DNA of 64,000 bases from Adineta ricciae (taxonomy: Eukaryota > Rotifera > Eurotatoria > Adinetida > Adinetidae). The translations under genes and the position numbers were made by a program. Below, piece after piece: positions 8,960 through 46,201 of this stretch. Where the stretch lies: contig CAJNOJ010000377.1 of the NCBI GenBank assembly GCA_905250025.1, forward strand, positions 23,924-87,923. The letters run 5' to 3'. Numbering within the stretch: the first letter of the stretch is position 1; each line of letters begins with the position of its first letter. The notes below the pieces were generated by a model. That model saw only the letters and a program-made list of their open reading frames with translations, did no database searches and was not told the origin of the DNA.

Positions 8960-11355
8960 ATGAATGACACTTGCAAAGCAGCAATAGCATCTACACAAAA
9001 CCATACAGACATGTTTAGCCAAGGTGATCTTTTATTTTGGCGATGCGAATATGCACAAGCCAAGCAATATTTCGAAACAATTTTAAATCAGTCATCGGCA
9101 ACTCCTATTGAATTAGCTCGATGCTATCATTCACTCGGTGCAACAAATGCCAAACTAAAGAATTATGCAGAAGCATTGAAAAATCACGAGAAAGAATTGG
9201 AGACATTATTAAAATTGGAAACATCGGATAAGATCGTGACAGATACGGTGAAATGTTACACGTCAATTGGGAAGATCCATTGTTTGACATCGAATAACGC
9301 TGAAGCCATCAATTGGTACAAACAGGCACTTGATCTTATAGCGACTATTACTCTAGATTTTGATCTTATCTCCAATATTTATAAAGATTTGGCCAATCTA
9401 TATACAAGAACACATGACTTTGAACAAGCAATGAGTTATTTCACAAAGGCACTTGACATCGATCGCGAACAACTCAGAGAGAATCATCCAAAGTTGGGGC
9501 AAACATACGCGAATATGGGAGCTATGTATTATCAGCAGCATGATTATAAAAAAGCACTAGAATACTTCTTAAAAGCTGATGATATATGGCAGAAATCTCT
9601 AGCATCAACTCACGCCTATCGTGAATCTATGGGAAAGACGATCTGCCAAGTTGAACGAAAACTAAGTATGTATATATTTTAAATACTAAGACTTAGCTGT
9701 AAAAGAGTGTAAGTTAAAACTATAGAAGCGCGTATACAGTCAAATCAGCGCATTTCTGCCGTCAAGCAAATAATTTATTAATTTTAGGTGAAGTATCTGC
9801 TCCACAGTACAAGAACAGATTAAAAGCCATTCGTACGCAATTGGTCTCATTACAAACAAGCATGGAACCGGGGTGGTCGTTAAAACATTATGATCCTGAC
9901 GAACTCAGTCCATGGGAACTTATTGTGGAAGGTCCTGCTGGTACACCATATGAAAATGGTCGTTTTCAAGTGATAGTAAGATTTCCTCTTGATTATCCAT
10001 TCGAGGTTCAGGAGATATCCTTCATTACCAAAATTCTCCATCCAAACATCGATCCTAATGGACGCATCTGTTTCGAAGTACTTATGGATGGTGGTTGGAG
10101 TCCTACACGGAGTATACGGGTTTTACTACAAAGTATTCAGAAATTACTTGCTAATCCGAATTTTGATGACTTTATCTATCCGGAAGCGGCTTTCCTTTTC
10201 AAAGAAGATCGTGACAAATTTCAGCAAAAAGCGATCGAGTGGACTAAAACGTTTGCCACTCACGATGTTCCAACGACTTCACCGCAATCATCGTCTGCGC
10301 TCGAGAAGGTATGAAAGATGTAAATAGATTTTTTAAGAATACATCTTTATATTTTTTTCAAGGCTGAAATAAATGTGAAACGAACTGAGCAATCACAGCT
10401 CAGCGCTGACGGTGCATCAATTTGGCTGTGGAAATTTATATCGCCTGAAAAAGTTCAGTGGCTTTGGTTTTGGAATATCGAGATATCGATTCTTGATCAT
10501 GCGTATTTAAATAAGCAGAAAAGCGTCGAACTAGACAGCTGCATTGTTAATTTGGACGAAGGCTACCGAGTAAACAAAGAAGATGGAACTAAGACCGAAG
10601 TTATTCGTGTTACTGACCCTCAGTACAACGCAGAGATTCGTGAGAAATGGAACGCCAAACAACAATTAGCAGAATATGCTACCTTCTACAATGATACATC
10701 AAGCGATCAAACGCCCATCCTTGACAAGTGTTTATCATTAGACGTCAACATTTCTGCCGTTGCAAATGGTATTCGTAACGAAGGCAGGTTAATTGGAAAG
10801 CCGATCGAAGCTAATTATATCGCTGAAGAATTAGAACGTGCTGCCCAAGCTGATCGTTCTTTCGTAGGTTTACAATGTATTCATCAATATACGCGCAGTT
10901 CATTTCTGTATATGAGTCTCAACGAGTTTCTATGTAATAATGACTTAAGTAAACTCGACAATCTTGGACCATATTTAAAACTACTCTTTTTGCATTTCAA
11001 AGAGTATTCTCTCACTGCAGACGCATTAACCGTCTATCGCGGTACTAATCTGTCTTCCACAGAACTGCAAGCTTATCAGCAAGCAATTGGTACGAATACG
11101 TACCGATGGTTTGGTTTTATATCGACGAGTAGAAGCAGAAAAGTGGCGGAATTTTACGATGCAAACACGTTAATGATTATTCAGTTGAAAAAACAGTATC
11201 CAAATGATGGACGAGCAGTGGATATCAGAGTTTTATCCCAATTTCCTGAAGAGGAAGAGGTACTACTCCGAGCGGGCGTACAGTTCTGCGTGGAGAAAGT
11301 CGAATTCGACGAACAGAAGAAAAAACATATAATACATATTGAGGCCTATGTTTGA
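8960..11355 (+). CDS. TPR - ubiquitin E2 - WWE - ADP-ribosyltransferase fusion
   Basis: Three exons (8960-9665, 9788-10308, 10363-11355) join in phase to 739 residues. Residues 1-235 hold several TPR repeats (for example AEALKNHEKELETLLKLE). Residues ~240-395 are an E2 ubiquitin-conjugating fold: HPN at 320-322, the likely thioester cysteine C330 in GRIC, then WSPTRSI and PNFDD. Residues ~428-500 look like a WWE domain (W430, W432, W442, W444, then a basic IRV end), a fold that binds ADP-ribose units. Residues ~560-739 are an R-S-E ART: R635 in VYRG, STS at 663-665, and EEEEVL at 705-710. No signal peptide; intracellular. It may transfer both ubiquitin and ADP-ribose, or ubiquitinate ADP-ribosylated targets. 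The fusion is seen in sequence; the activity is inferred. AATAAA at 11395. Confidence 0.88.
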
Positions 11356-11667: not shown

Positions 11668-13587
11668 ATGGCTCAATCACCAGTTCCTTGGGATGAAAAC
11701 GACGAAGGCAATTCGATTTCAGCAGTCAGCTCCAGTGATTTAAATGCGTATGCGAAAGAATTTGTACCAGGATTTATCCCGAAACTTTCGTCTGCTGAAC
11801 AAATCAATGCTGAAATGGAACAAAAATATGCACGATCGACAACCGCTCCAACGACTACTGCAGAAACGCTCAACGAAACAACAAAATCTAACACTTCATC
11901 CGTTTCGAAAGGCAAGAAAGCTATTGCTGTTGTTAAACGAGACATTGGGAGACAGAAGGAACCGTTGAACATTCTCTTCTGTGGCCATGTAGATGCCGGA
12001 AAGTCAACCATCGCTGGTCATTTACTGTAATTACGTCTCCTTTCCGTTTCAAGTCTGTTTTATAACTGAATTTTGCTTTAGGTTCTTGGCTGGTCAAATT
12101 GATCAACGAACTTTAGAAAAACATCAAGCAGAAGCTCGTGAGAACTCGCGGGAGTCAGGGGTGCATGCGTTTGCAACGGATACTACCGAAGAAGAACGAG
12201 CACGCGGTATAACTGTCGAAGTTGGTCGAGCTTGGTTTGAAACCGAGAGAAAACATATCGTTATTCTTGACGCACCTGGCCATCGACACTTTGTACCAAA
12301 TATGATTCTTGGAGCAGCTCAAGCAGACGTTGCCGTATTGGTAAGTTGGGTTATGCCACATGGATTTTACCTAAGTTACTATTTGGACTATCTCATAGGT
12401 CGTATCAGCACGCAGAGGTGAATTTGAAACGGGTTTTGAACGTGGTGGTCAAACTCGTGAGCATACGATGTTAGTAAAAGCAGCTGGCGTACGTCGTATG
12501 ATTGTTCTAATCAACAAAATGGATGATTCGACTGTTAACTGGGATCAAGCACGATACAATGAAATCAAAAATAAATTAATACCTTATTTGAAAAAGTGCG
12601 GTTTTAAATCGGACGAAGATATTACCTTCATCCCATGCAGCGGTATGAAAGGATCTTTTCTCAAAACGGCTCCTGAGGAGCAATGTGCTCCTTGGTACAC
12701 GTGAGTGTTTTCAAACGGTAGCTTTCAATTAGAAATGTTTTTTGCGCGTGTTTATAGTGGATCGGCATTTGCTCAGTATTTGGATAGTTTGCCACCGTTC
12801 AGTCGTAATATCGATGGTCCATTTCGTATGCCGATAGTTGAAAAGTACAAAGTAGGTCTTGTATTGAGTTGACAAAATGTAATATTTAATTTTGAAAAGG
12901 ACATGGGAATAATTGTGATGGGTAAAATTGAGTCTGGATGCTGTCGAGTTGGTGATCAATGTGTAATCATGCCCAACCGGAATCGTGTGAAAGTAACAAA
13001 TATCTATTATGAAGATATGGAAACTGATTTTTGTATTTGTGGAGAAAATGTTCGATTGAAACTGGAGAATATTGATGAAAACGTTTGTATTCCATCCATC
13101 TGTTTTAAATTGAATCGCTCATGAAATTCTCTTTTTTTTGTAGAAGATTTCATCTGGATCTGTTCTATGTAGCACGGAGAGCGAACCATGCCATGTTGGA
13201 AAACTATTTGATGCTGAGGTAAATTTCTTGATGAAACATTCACGTGATCTGAAAGTAATGTCTTTTATGATGTAGATTGTGGTTGTTGAACACAAATCAT
13301 TCATATCTCCTGGCTATTCGGCAGCTCTTCACATCTACGGGGCATCCGTCGAAGTTCAGTTGCAAAAACTAATCGTTTTAGTGGATCGGATGACAGGTGA
13401 ACGAACACAACCGAATCCACGTTATATTAAACAAGGTCATGCTGCGATTGCTCGATTTCAGTTATCTCAATCAGGAAAAGGAATCTGTATGGAATTGTTC
13501 AAAAACTTTGCTCCACTTGGTCGATTTACATTACGAGAACAAAACGGAACAGTCGCTGTGGGCCACATTCTCAAAATAATTGAATAA
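11668..13587 (+). CDS. eRF3-like translation termination GTPase (7 exons)
   Basis: Exons 11668-12026, 12082-12340, 12399-12700, 12758-12851, 12900-13082, 13144-13218 and 13276-13587 join in phase to 527 residues. It is the GTPase that helps eRF1 release finished proteins. Seen: a PAM2-like motif ([11 protein letters not shown], residues 25-35), which in eRF3 binds poly(A)-binding protein; P-loop GHVDAGKS near 106; a [14 protein letters not shown] stretch; DAPGH; NKMD; then barrel domains with MGKIESG and a C-terminus GRFTLRE...VAVG, as in eRF3. The N-terminal extension is short (~97 residues). It is closer to eRF3 than to EF-1A or HBS1 because of the PAM2 motif and the [14 protein letters not shown] stretch. 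It may be an extra, fast-evolving paralog. The block B copy is damaged. Confidence 0.88.
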
Positions 13588-43806: not shown

Positions 43807-46201
43807 ATGAACGACGTTTCCAAAGCAGCGATAGCATCTGCACAAAATCATACAGACATGTTTAGTCAAGGTGATCTTTTATTTTGGCGATGCGAATATG
43901 CACAAGCCAAACAATATTTCGAAACAATTTTAAATCAGTCATCGGCAACTCCTGTTGAATTAGCTCGATGCTATCATTCACTCGGTGCAACGAATGCCAA
44001 ACTAAAGAATTATGCAGAAGCATTGAAAAATCACGAGAAAGAATTGGAGACATTATTAAAATTGGAAACATCGGATAAGATCGTGACAGATACGGCGAAA
44101 TGTTACATGTCAATTGGGAAGATCCATTGTTTGACATTGAATAACGCTGAAGCGATCAATTGGTACAAACAGGCACTTGATCTTAGAACGATTATTACTC
44201 TAGATTTTGATCTTATCTCCAATATTTATAAAGATTTGGCCAATCTATATACAAGAACACATGACTTTGAACAAGCAATGAGTTATTTCACAAAGGCACT
44301 TGACATCGATCGCGAACAACTCAGAGAGAATCATCCGAAGTTCGGGCAAACATACGCGAATATGGGAGCTATGTATTACCAGCAGCATGACTATAAAAAA
44401 GCACTAGAGTACTTTTTAAAAGCTAATGATATATGGCAAAAATCCCTAGCATCAACTCATGCCTATTGTGAATCTATGGGAAAGACAATCCGCCAAGTTG
44501 AACGAAAACTAAGTATGTATATATTTTAAATACTAAGACTTAGCTATAAAAGAGTGTAAGTTAAAACTATAGAAACGCGTATACAGTCAAATCAGCGCAT
44601 TTCTGCCGTCAAGCAAATTATCTATTAATTTTAGGTGAAATATCTGCTCCACAGTACAAGAACAAATTAAAAGCCATTCATATTCAATTGGTCTCATTAC
44701 AAACAAGCATGGAACCAGGCTGGTCGTTAAAACACTATGATCCTGATGAACTCAATCCATGGGAACTTATTGTGGAAGGTCCTGCTGGCACACCATATGA
44801 AAATGGTCGTTTTCAAGTGACAGTACGATTTCCTTTTGAATATCCATTCAAGGCTCCGGAGATATCCTTCATTACCAAAATTCTCCATCCAAACATCCAT
44901 CCCAATGGATACATCTGTCTCGAGGTACTTATTCGTGATACTTGGAGTCCTACACGGAGTATACGGTTTTTACTAAAAAGTATTCAGAAATTACTTGCTA
45001 ATCCGAATTTTGATGACTTTATCTACCCGGAAGCGGCTTTCCTTTTCAAAGACGATCGTGACAAATTTCAGCAAAAAGCGATCGAGTGGACTAAAACGTT
45101 TGCCACTCCCGATGTTCCAACGACTTCATCGCAATCATCGTCTACGCTTGAGAACGTATGAAAGATGTAAATAGATTTTATAAGAATACATCTTTATATT
45201 TTTCCAAGGCTGAAATAAATGTGAAACGAACTGAGCAATCACAGCTCAGCGCTGAGGGTTCATCAATTTGGCTGTGGAAATTTATATCGCCTGAAAAAGT
45301 TCACTGGCTTTGGTTTTGGAATATCGAGATATTGATCCTTGATCATGCATATTTAAATAAGCAGAAAAGCGTCGAACTAGACAGCTGCATTGTTAATTTC
45401 GACGAAGGTTGTCGAGTAAACAAAGAAGATGGAACTAAAACCGAAGTTATCCGTGTTACTGACCCTCAGTACAACGCAAAGATTCGTGAGAAATGGAACG
45501 CCAAACATCAATTAGCAGAACATGTTACCTTCTACAATGATACATCAAGCGATCGAACGCCCATCCTTGACAAGTGTTTATCATTAGACGTCAACATTTC
45601 TGCCGTTGCAAATGGTATTCGTAACGAAGGCAGGTTAATTGGAAAGCCGATCGAAGCTAATTATATCGCTGAAGAATTAGAACGTGCTGCCCAAGATGAT
45701 CGTTCTTTCGTAGGTTTACAATGTATTCATCAATATACGCGCAGTTCATTTCTGTATATAAGTCTCAACGAGTTTCTATGTAATAATGATTTAAGTAAAC
45801 TCGACAATCTTGGACCATATTTAAAACTACTCTTTCTGCATTTCAAAGAGTATTCTCTCACCGCAGACGCATTAACCGTCTATCGCGGTACTAACCTGTC
45901 ATCCACAGAACTGCAAGCTTATCGGCAAGCAATTGGTCCGAATACGTACCGATGGTTTGGTTTTATATCGACGAGTAGAAGCAGAAAAGTGGCGGAATTT
46001 TACGATGCGAACACGTTAATGATTATTCAGTTGAAAAAACAGTATCCAAATGATGGACGAGCAGTGGATATCAGAGTTTTATCGCAATTTCCTGAAGAAG
46101 AAGAGGTACTACTTCGAGCGGGCGTACAGTTCTGCGTGAAGAAATTCGAACTTGATGAACAGAAGGAAAAACATATAATACATATTGAGGCCTATGTTTG
46201 A
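43807..46201 (+). CDS. TPR - ubiquitin E2 - WWE - ART fusion, block B
   Basis: Exons 43807-44512, 44635-45155 and 45209-46201 have exactly the same lengths as in block A (706, 521, 993), giving 739 residues. The E2 cysteine is kept in a changed setting (YICLEVL against RICFEVL), with WSP after it. The WWE tryptophans are kept, and the ART triad (YRG, STS, EEEEVL) is intact. Equal exon lengths with many silent changes show the four-domain fusion is held together by selection, not by a recent accident. Confidence 0.88.

Follow-up and report, generated by a model that had tools for sequence, protein, structure and literature searches.

The window analysed here is a stretch of 64,000 nucleotides (C377:23924-87923) from the assembly of Adineta ricciae, a bdelloid rotifer (these are microscopic animals of fresh water), which comprises 130 Mb in 1033 contigs. 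Positions below are those of the window, and the two genes described first lie on its forward strand. At 8960-11355 we found a gene (copy A) with three exons of 706, 521 and 993 nt that join in one frame of 739 codons plus a stop, which is the structure that the initial annotation had predicted. Exon 1 (8960..9665) encodes TPR repeats (residues 1-235), exon 2 (9788..10308) a ubiquitin E2 domain and a linker, and exon 3 (10363..11355) a WWE-like stretch and an ADP-ribosyltransferase (ART), giving the domain order TPR repeats, UBE2D-like E2, WWE-like stretch, R-S-E ART. Both introns, intron 1 at 9666..9787 (GTATGT...TTTTAG) and the phase-0 intron 2 at 10309..10362 (GTATGA...TTCAAG), begin with GT and end with AG. 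Among the 21 Pfam families listed for copy A are UQ_con (2.6e-34), TPR_12 (1.1e-26, in exon 1), ADPrib_exo_Tox (5.6e-11) and ART (3.9e-10), and the TPR, E2 and ART matches are far beyond chance.

A second gene, copy B (43807-46201), has exon lengths identical to those of copy A, as had been claimed for it: exon 1 at 43807..44512, exon 2 with the E2 (UQ_con 1.8e-36) at 44635..45155, and exon 3 with the WWE-like stretch and the ART (4.9e-10) at 45209..46201. The coding sequences of the two copies are 95.2% identical, the proteins differ at 58 amino acids in total, and dN/dS over the whole gene is 0.037/0.100. In both copies one frame, including that across intron 1, runs over two canonical introns, which bears out the proposal of a single fused gene. 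The copy B protein is identical at 739 of 739 residues to a public A. ricciae protein (P0001), whose record names it a 'UBC core domain-containing protein' and lists Pfam entries for TPR, E2 and ART; the pairing was therefore already visible to machine annotation, and in the open literature we found no paper on the E2-ART pairing of P0001.

The E2 domain of copy A (residues 251-387; 9832..10242) belongs to the ubiquitin E2 family (PF00179): it is a UBC domain in which both the HPN motif (residues 320-322; 10039..10047) and the active-site Cys (C330; 10069..10071), located by alignment to solved Ubc4, are present. These residues, like R635, STS 663-665 and EEEE 705-708 of the ART, stand at the positions claimed for them. 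The closest sequence matches are the Ubc4/UBE2D enzymes (PDB chains, best 6.6e-33), with which copy A shares HPN, the Cys, WSP and DD; those are stand-alone enzymes, whereas the E2 of the window lies inside a chain of 739 residues. HPN and the Cys are kept in all seven family proteins that hold this part, namely copies A and B, A. steineri P0003, two genes on contig C114, one gene on C281 and R. sordida P0012; P0002 lacks that part. Copies A, B and P0003 also keep a W-S-P motif, which we take to be the E3-side motif.

An AlphaFold model of copy B made from 14 alignment rows had a mean pLDDT of 74.2 and, in blocks of ten residues, values of 74-97 over the TPR part, 76-92 over the WWE, 71-94 over the ART and 39-69 over the E2. 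The VIA-align rows mostly span the TPR part (residues 4-240) and hold little information on E2, WWE and ART; an earlier model from 4 rows was weak over E2 and ART. The TPR part is modelled as helix pairs at residues 21-240, in which the high block means quoted above were obtained, and its closest structural matches are the TPR folds of LGN and KLC. Foldseek searches with the copy B model returned UBE2D2 (5.8e-07, probability 1.00), C3-type ADP-ribosyltransferases (from 1.2e-06) and TPR chains. Structure prediction had been proposed as a check on the E2 and the WWE: the WWE fold did appear, in the order strand, strand, helix, four strands, whereas the E2 gave the UBE2D2 match at low pLDDT. Since that part of the model is weak, the E2 assignment rests on sequence.

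The WWE-like stretch (residues 430-491; 10423..10608) falls under the cut-off of Pfam WWE (PF02825) in copy A (0.027; 15.3 bits vs 21.1), as it does in copy B and P0002 (16.1 bits each), in P0003 (20.9) and in the two C114 genes (19.1 and 16.9). When hhalign compared nine family rows with ten stretches taken from the WWE of WWE-ART relatives, the profiles matched with 98.7% probability (E 1.7e-16). The nine rows were copies A and B, P0002, P0003 and the C114 pair, in all of which an E2 was seen, and the fragments P0009, P0010 and P0013; P0011 (start cut) was excluded, as was P0014, which has no WWE. Searched against the PDB, the relatives' profile matches the WWE chains of RNF146, TRIP12, DTX and HUWE1; the family's own profile returned zero WWE chains there and one chance match (E 0.2). 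Descent of residues 430-491 from a WWE domain is thus supported by the profile comparison.

In solved WWE domains a Gln holds the adenine, and a Tyr and an Arg hold the phosphate, according to the available part of one report (PMC11269756); the available part of another names Gln153 and Arg163 of the RNF146 pocket (PMC10877565). The Tyr, the Gln and the Arg in the A488 column of the WWE-ART relatives align, respectively, with the RNF146 Tyr that precedes Gln153 by nine residues, with Gln153 itself and with the Arg that follows Gln153 by ten. The ten relatives have the Tyr in 10, the Gln in 8 and the Arg in 8, whereas the nine family rows have Cys in place of the Tyr in every case, keep the Gln in two and the Arg at A488 in none; the terminal Arg, R491, is present in all nine. 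This table, made from sequence alignment only, suggests that the family WWE has probably lost ordinary ADP-ribose reading. Of the 'WWE-like ADP-ribose reader' in the initial annotation, the WWE therefore stands by its descent, but the reader is doubtful, the pocket Tyr, Gln and Arg being largely replaced.

The ART domain (residues 580-737; 10873..11346) is a member of the R-S-E ART family (PF01129; 39.9 bits against a cut-off of 22.3), with R635 (11038..11040), STS (663-665; 11122..11130) and E706-x-E708, inside EEEE 705-708 (11248..11259), all present. R635, S663, T664 and E706-E708 are nearly invariant in 14 rows, S665 being outside that list, and the R, STS and E-x-E residues are kept in seven of eight family proteins, the exception being P0003, which is without the ART core. 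By its E-x-E motif the ART of copy A is of the arginine type. A sequence search of the PDB with the ART part gave three weak names only (best 0.00036). Bdelloid WWE-ART frames (A. ricciae C854, C294, C929 and others; P0015 and P0016) are kin of exon 3, having the R-S-E residues and, within a single open frame, WWE and ART in the same order; they differ from the window gene in that no E2 was seen in them and in that their WWE pocket residues are mostly kept.

With the WWE-ART part as query, the A. ricciae genome gave 127 matches, of which the best beyond the window copies were two on C114 (40% and 39%). Both C114 loci have an E2 exon directly upstream, and a phase-0 intron at the position equivalent to that of intron 2 in copy A; Pfam found an E2 (7.7e-33 and 2.9e-32) and an ART in each, and tblastn (E 1e-3) found no TPR upstream in the 7 kb pieces. 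The two C114 genes (L001, L002) are tandem duplicates lying about 12 kb from each other, and a neighbouring gene on the opposite strand was duplicated with them. On C281, E2, linker and ART exons join through canonical splice sites into 721 residues (E2 9.8e-43, ART 1.2e-12), with no Pfam WWE match at E 0.1. The E2-ART loci of this genome number at least five, in three layouts. Hits on C458, C218, C367, C199, C265 and others were also considered as E2-ART genes and were rejected by eye, lying far apart or on opposite strands. These counts come from scoring 150 of 553 ART candidates, which gave at least 150 ART places counted exon by exon, and 150 of 154 E2 candidates, which gave 137 matches. 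Several of the ART places have a single open frame, about 340-380 residues long, that covers both WWE and ART; among open-literature titles and abstract starts we found no dedicated paper on the large ART family of A. ricciae.

Among the named proteins that the protein searches returned, four are related to the joined form: A. ricciae P0001, A. steineri P0003, Rotaria sp. Silwood2 P0002 and R. sordida P0012. The genera Adineta and Rotaria are placed in separate bdelloid orders. A search of other rotifers had been suggested in the initial annotation. R. sordida P0012 carries an E2 (1.2e-41) and an ART (3.9e-11), with no Pfam WWE match, and P0002 carries the end of an E2, a WWE and an ART, whereas A. 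steineri P0003 has TPR, E2 and WWE but, at the place of the ART core, other sequence followed by leucine-rich repeats. P0012 is colinear with the C281 gene, with an identity of 48% over E2 and linker and 50% over the ART. The replacement of the ART core in P0003 is either a new fusion or a gene-model error. Among the matches listed, which were relatives sharing five-residue words, there was no named non-bdelloid protein with E2 and ART.

In an ART tree of 25 rows, C377 copies A and B, the C114 pair, C281, P0002, P0012 and P0009 fall into a single clade (98/97); P0009 is a 312-residue fragment from a 1.4 kb contig, in which no E2 is seen. The 17 loci L004-L020 were reduced to 12 for this tree, L009 and L017 being omitted as near copies of L007 and L016 and C301, C226 and C181 dropped by the motif filter; P0010, P0011, P0013, P0014 and P0021-P0023 were not entered. 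An E2 tree of 29 rows, including 20 other E2 places of the genome chosen among the best-scoring of the 137 matches, grouped the C377, C114 and A. steineri E2s weakly (80/41) and C281 with P0012 well (96/96). The joined E2s are not one clade in it, and a constraint holding all seven together was not rejected (p-AU 0.371). Because the E2-joined ARTs fall in one clade, the fusion is probably older than the split of the two bdelloid orders. The simplest reading would be one fusion before that split, with the TPR part gained or lost later and the WWE lost in the C281 type.

The differences between copies A and B are concentrated in the E2, where one stretch of 51 residues holds 14 of the 58 amino-acid differences (scan p 0.0016). 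At residues 298-350, 15 codon differences change the residue and 3 are silent, against 43 and 38 elsewhere (Fisher p 0.019, for a region picked after seeing the data); dN/dS at 300-350 is 0.159/0.093, and dN is 0.071 over the E2 and 0.021 over the ART. After YPF, copy A has EVQ and copy B KAP; most other aligned E2s end in PP. With P0003 used to polarise the 22 differences at 237-395, copy A keeps 4, copy B keeps 5 and 13 match neither, and P0003 was set aside for this purpose as it does not tell which copy changed. By these comparisons the E2 of copy A is changing unusually fast near its active site, and it may be decaying or adapting. The C114 E2s are without the second acidic residue past the active site, reading LYH and LDY where copy A reads FDD; the C281 and P0012 E2s keep the usual motifs. 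From the alignment, we take the residue missing on C114 to be the equivalent of Asp117 of UBCH5. A role of this Asp117 in lysine transfer is described in the accessible part of a published report (PMC7615817).

The statement that no described eukaryotic enzyme joins E2 and ART was too strong, since fungal, moss and algal PARP6/8 proteins with a UBCc are in print. As far as the available portions of the two reports go, fungal Clade 6A PARPs (PARP6/8-type) have a C-terminal UBCc with an active Cys (Citarelli 2010, PMC2964712), and a UBCc occurs in PARP6/8 homologues of Ascomycota, Basidiomycota, Physcomitrella and Chlamydomonas (Perina 2014, PMC4245714). Because these proteins have been described, the E2-ART pairing as an idea is not new. 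For an E2 joined to an R-S-E ART, we found no description in open-literature titles and abstract starts, and the R-S-E version in an animal is apparently a new variant, independent of the PARP-UBCc proteins. On the published excerpts, the Clade 6A proteins are like the bdelloid gene in having an ADP-ribosyltransferase and a UBC in one protein, but their transferase is a PARP catalytic domain, whereas the bdelloid gene has an R-S-E ART and no PARP among its 21 listed Pfam families. The fungal E2 is C-terminal, whereas that of the bdelloid gene is N-terminal to the ART, with the TPR in front; and the PARP6/8-UBCc hosts are fungi, a moss and a green alga, the bdelloid gene being that of an animal.

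The Legionella SidE group, which the initial annotation had named as the nearest parallel, resembles the bdelloid gene, in the source text available, as a mono-ADP-ribosyltransferase in ubiquitin biology. The parallel is one of idea only: the bacterial SidE proteins, which we take to combine an mART with a phosphodiesterase and to have no E2 domain, differ from copy A, for which no phosphodiesterase family is present among the 21 Pfam families listed. SidE works independently of E1 and E2. The RNF146 and DTX E3s that work with PARPs tie ADP-ribosylation to ubiquitin through a WWE or a DTC, in the portions of the literature at hand; they are, however, separate proteins and E3 rather than E2, and the window gene has no DTC or RING among its Pfam hits. 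In the accessible part of a 2025 review of both marks, the WWE is a known bridge between ADP-ribosylation and ubiquitin marks, and the words 'fusion' and 'UBC' are absent from the main text (PMC12687431).

ADP-ribosylation and ubiquitination meet in several pathways, mostly via separate proteins, and an animal enzyme that is conserved and has its two catalytic centres in one chain would allow a clean test of whether one mark directs the other. The gene structure, the domains and both sets of catalytic residues are observed here, as is their upkeep across paralogs and species; an E2-ART protein probably lets one molecule place two different marks. The reading that we prefer, and to which we give an even chance, is that of a bdelloid enzyme family with a UBE2D-like E2 and an R-S-E ART in one chain, putting two marks on one complex. 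The TPR part would hold a client or partner complex, E1 would load ubiquitin on C330, and a RING-type E3 would draw the ubiquitin to the TPR-held client; the ART, with NAD+ as donor, would attach ADP-ribose to an arginine, either on that client or on a partner from the ubiquitin pathway. The two marks would in this way be placed on one complex, and the WWE-like stretch would then be mainly a structural spacer. We count in favour of this account the phase-0 intron common to C377 and C114 between the E2 and the WWE-ART part, the single frame in both copies, the upkeep of the active sites, the ART clade, the colinearity of P0012 with C281 and the kept W-S-P. We count against it the weak model of the E2, the acidic residue lost on C114, the changes in the copy A E2, the absence of the ART core from P0003 and the E2 tree without a single joined clade.

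Several of these points also bear on other accounts. The E2 could be a docking module that delivers the ART to ubiquitin, to E1 or to E3s, the ART then modifying ubiquitin-pathway proteins, SidE-like in idea, and the E2's own transfer of ubiquitin being beside the point. The missing acidic residue of the C114 E2s (taken as the UBCH5 Asp117 equivalent), the rapid divergence of the E2 core from copy A to copy B and an ART steadier than the E2 are in keeping with such docking, which would not, however, require HPN and the Cys to be kept in seven of seven proteins, nor the usual motifs in the C281 and P0012 E2s; we regard it as rather unlikely. We think it improbable that a client is first marked by the ART, its ADP-ribose then read by the WWE and the client ubiquitinated by the E2, in the manner of RNF146/DTX but within one protein. 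The pocket residues mostly kept in the relatives are largely gone from the family WWE, and C281 and P0012 carry E2 and ART with no WWE match, against which can be set the support for WWE descent and fold and the role of the WWE as a known bridge of both marks, as the available part of the review has it (PMC12687431).

A fusion without function, in which one of many rotifer ART genes gained an E2 exon and now drifts, would suit the very large ART family of the genome (at least 150 places), the fast E2 change between the copies and the P0003 protein without its ART core. It is hard to reconcile with the upkeep of both catalytic sets from Adineta to Rotaria and at five loci within a single genome, or with the overall dN/dS between copies A and B, and we hold it to be quite unlikely. 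That separate TPR, E2 and ART genes have been read as one is very improbable indeed: the frame is kept over both canonical introns in both copies, and gene models of other species join the E2 with the ART (R. sordida) or with TPR and WWE (A. steineri). The occurrence of the E2-transferase pairing in fungi, a moss and an alga, there with a transferase of another class, suggests that the pairing itself is useful. A bolder version, which we consider a long shot, would have the E2 and a transferase fused at least twice (with a PARP in fungi, moss and alga; with an R-S-E ART in bdelloids) and the bdelloid enzyme making a hybrid mark in cis, its E2 passing ubiquitin straight onto ADP-ribose freshly placed by its own ART, or its ART marking the ubiquitin carried by its own E2.

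Elsewhere in the genome, two loci, L041 on C99 and L042 on C368, hold uninterrupted frames of 1111 and 979 residues that end in an E2 with HPN changed to HVN/HCN. Pfam finds the E2 of the C368 locus at 2.4e-35, with a ubiquitin-like N-terminal match under the cut-off (0.0067). The middle part is vWA-like by eye only. In the window, the gene downstream of copy A (11671-13587) has a translation-factor-like GTPase start (G-H-V-D-A-G-K-S-T) and by eye is probably eRF3/HBS1-like. The right end of the window, contig position 87,923, equals the length listed for the contig of P0001. A published report, in its available part, puts the median difference between homologous copies of A. ricciae at 4.55% and counts no more than two tandem cases for an older assembly (PMC5916493). 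Positions 1-28000 and 36000-64000 of the window form two collinear tandem blocks whose pairs are 92-98% alike (20 of 36 repeat families shown), an arrangement that reflects either two homologous copies truly in tandem or a join made in assembly.
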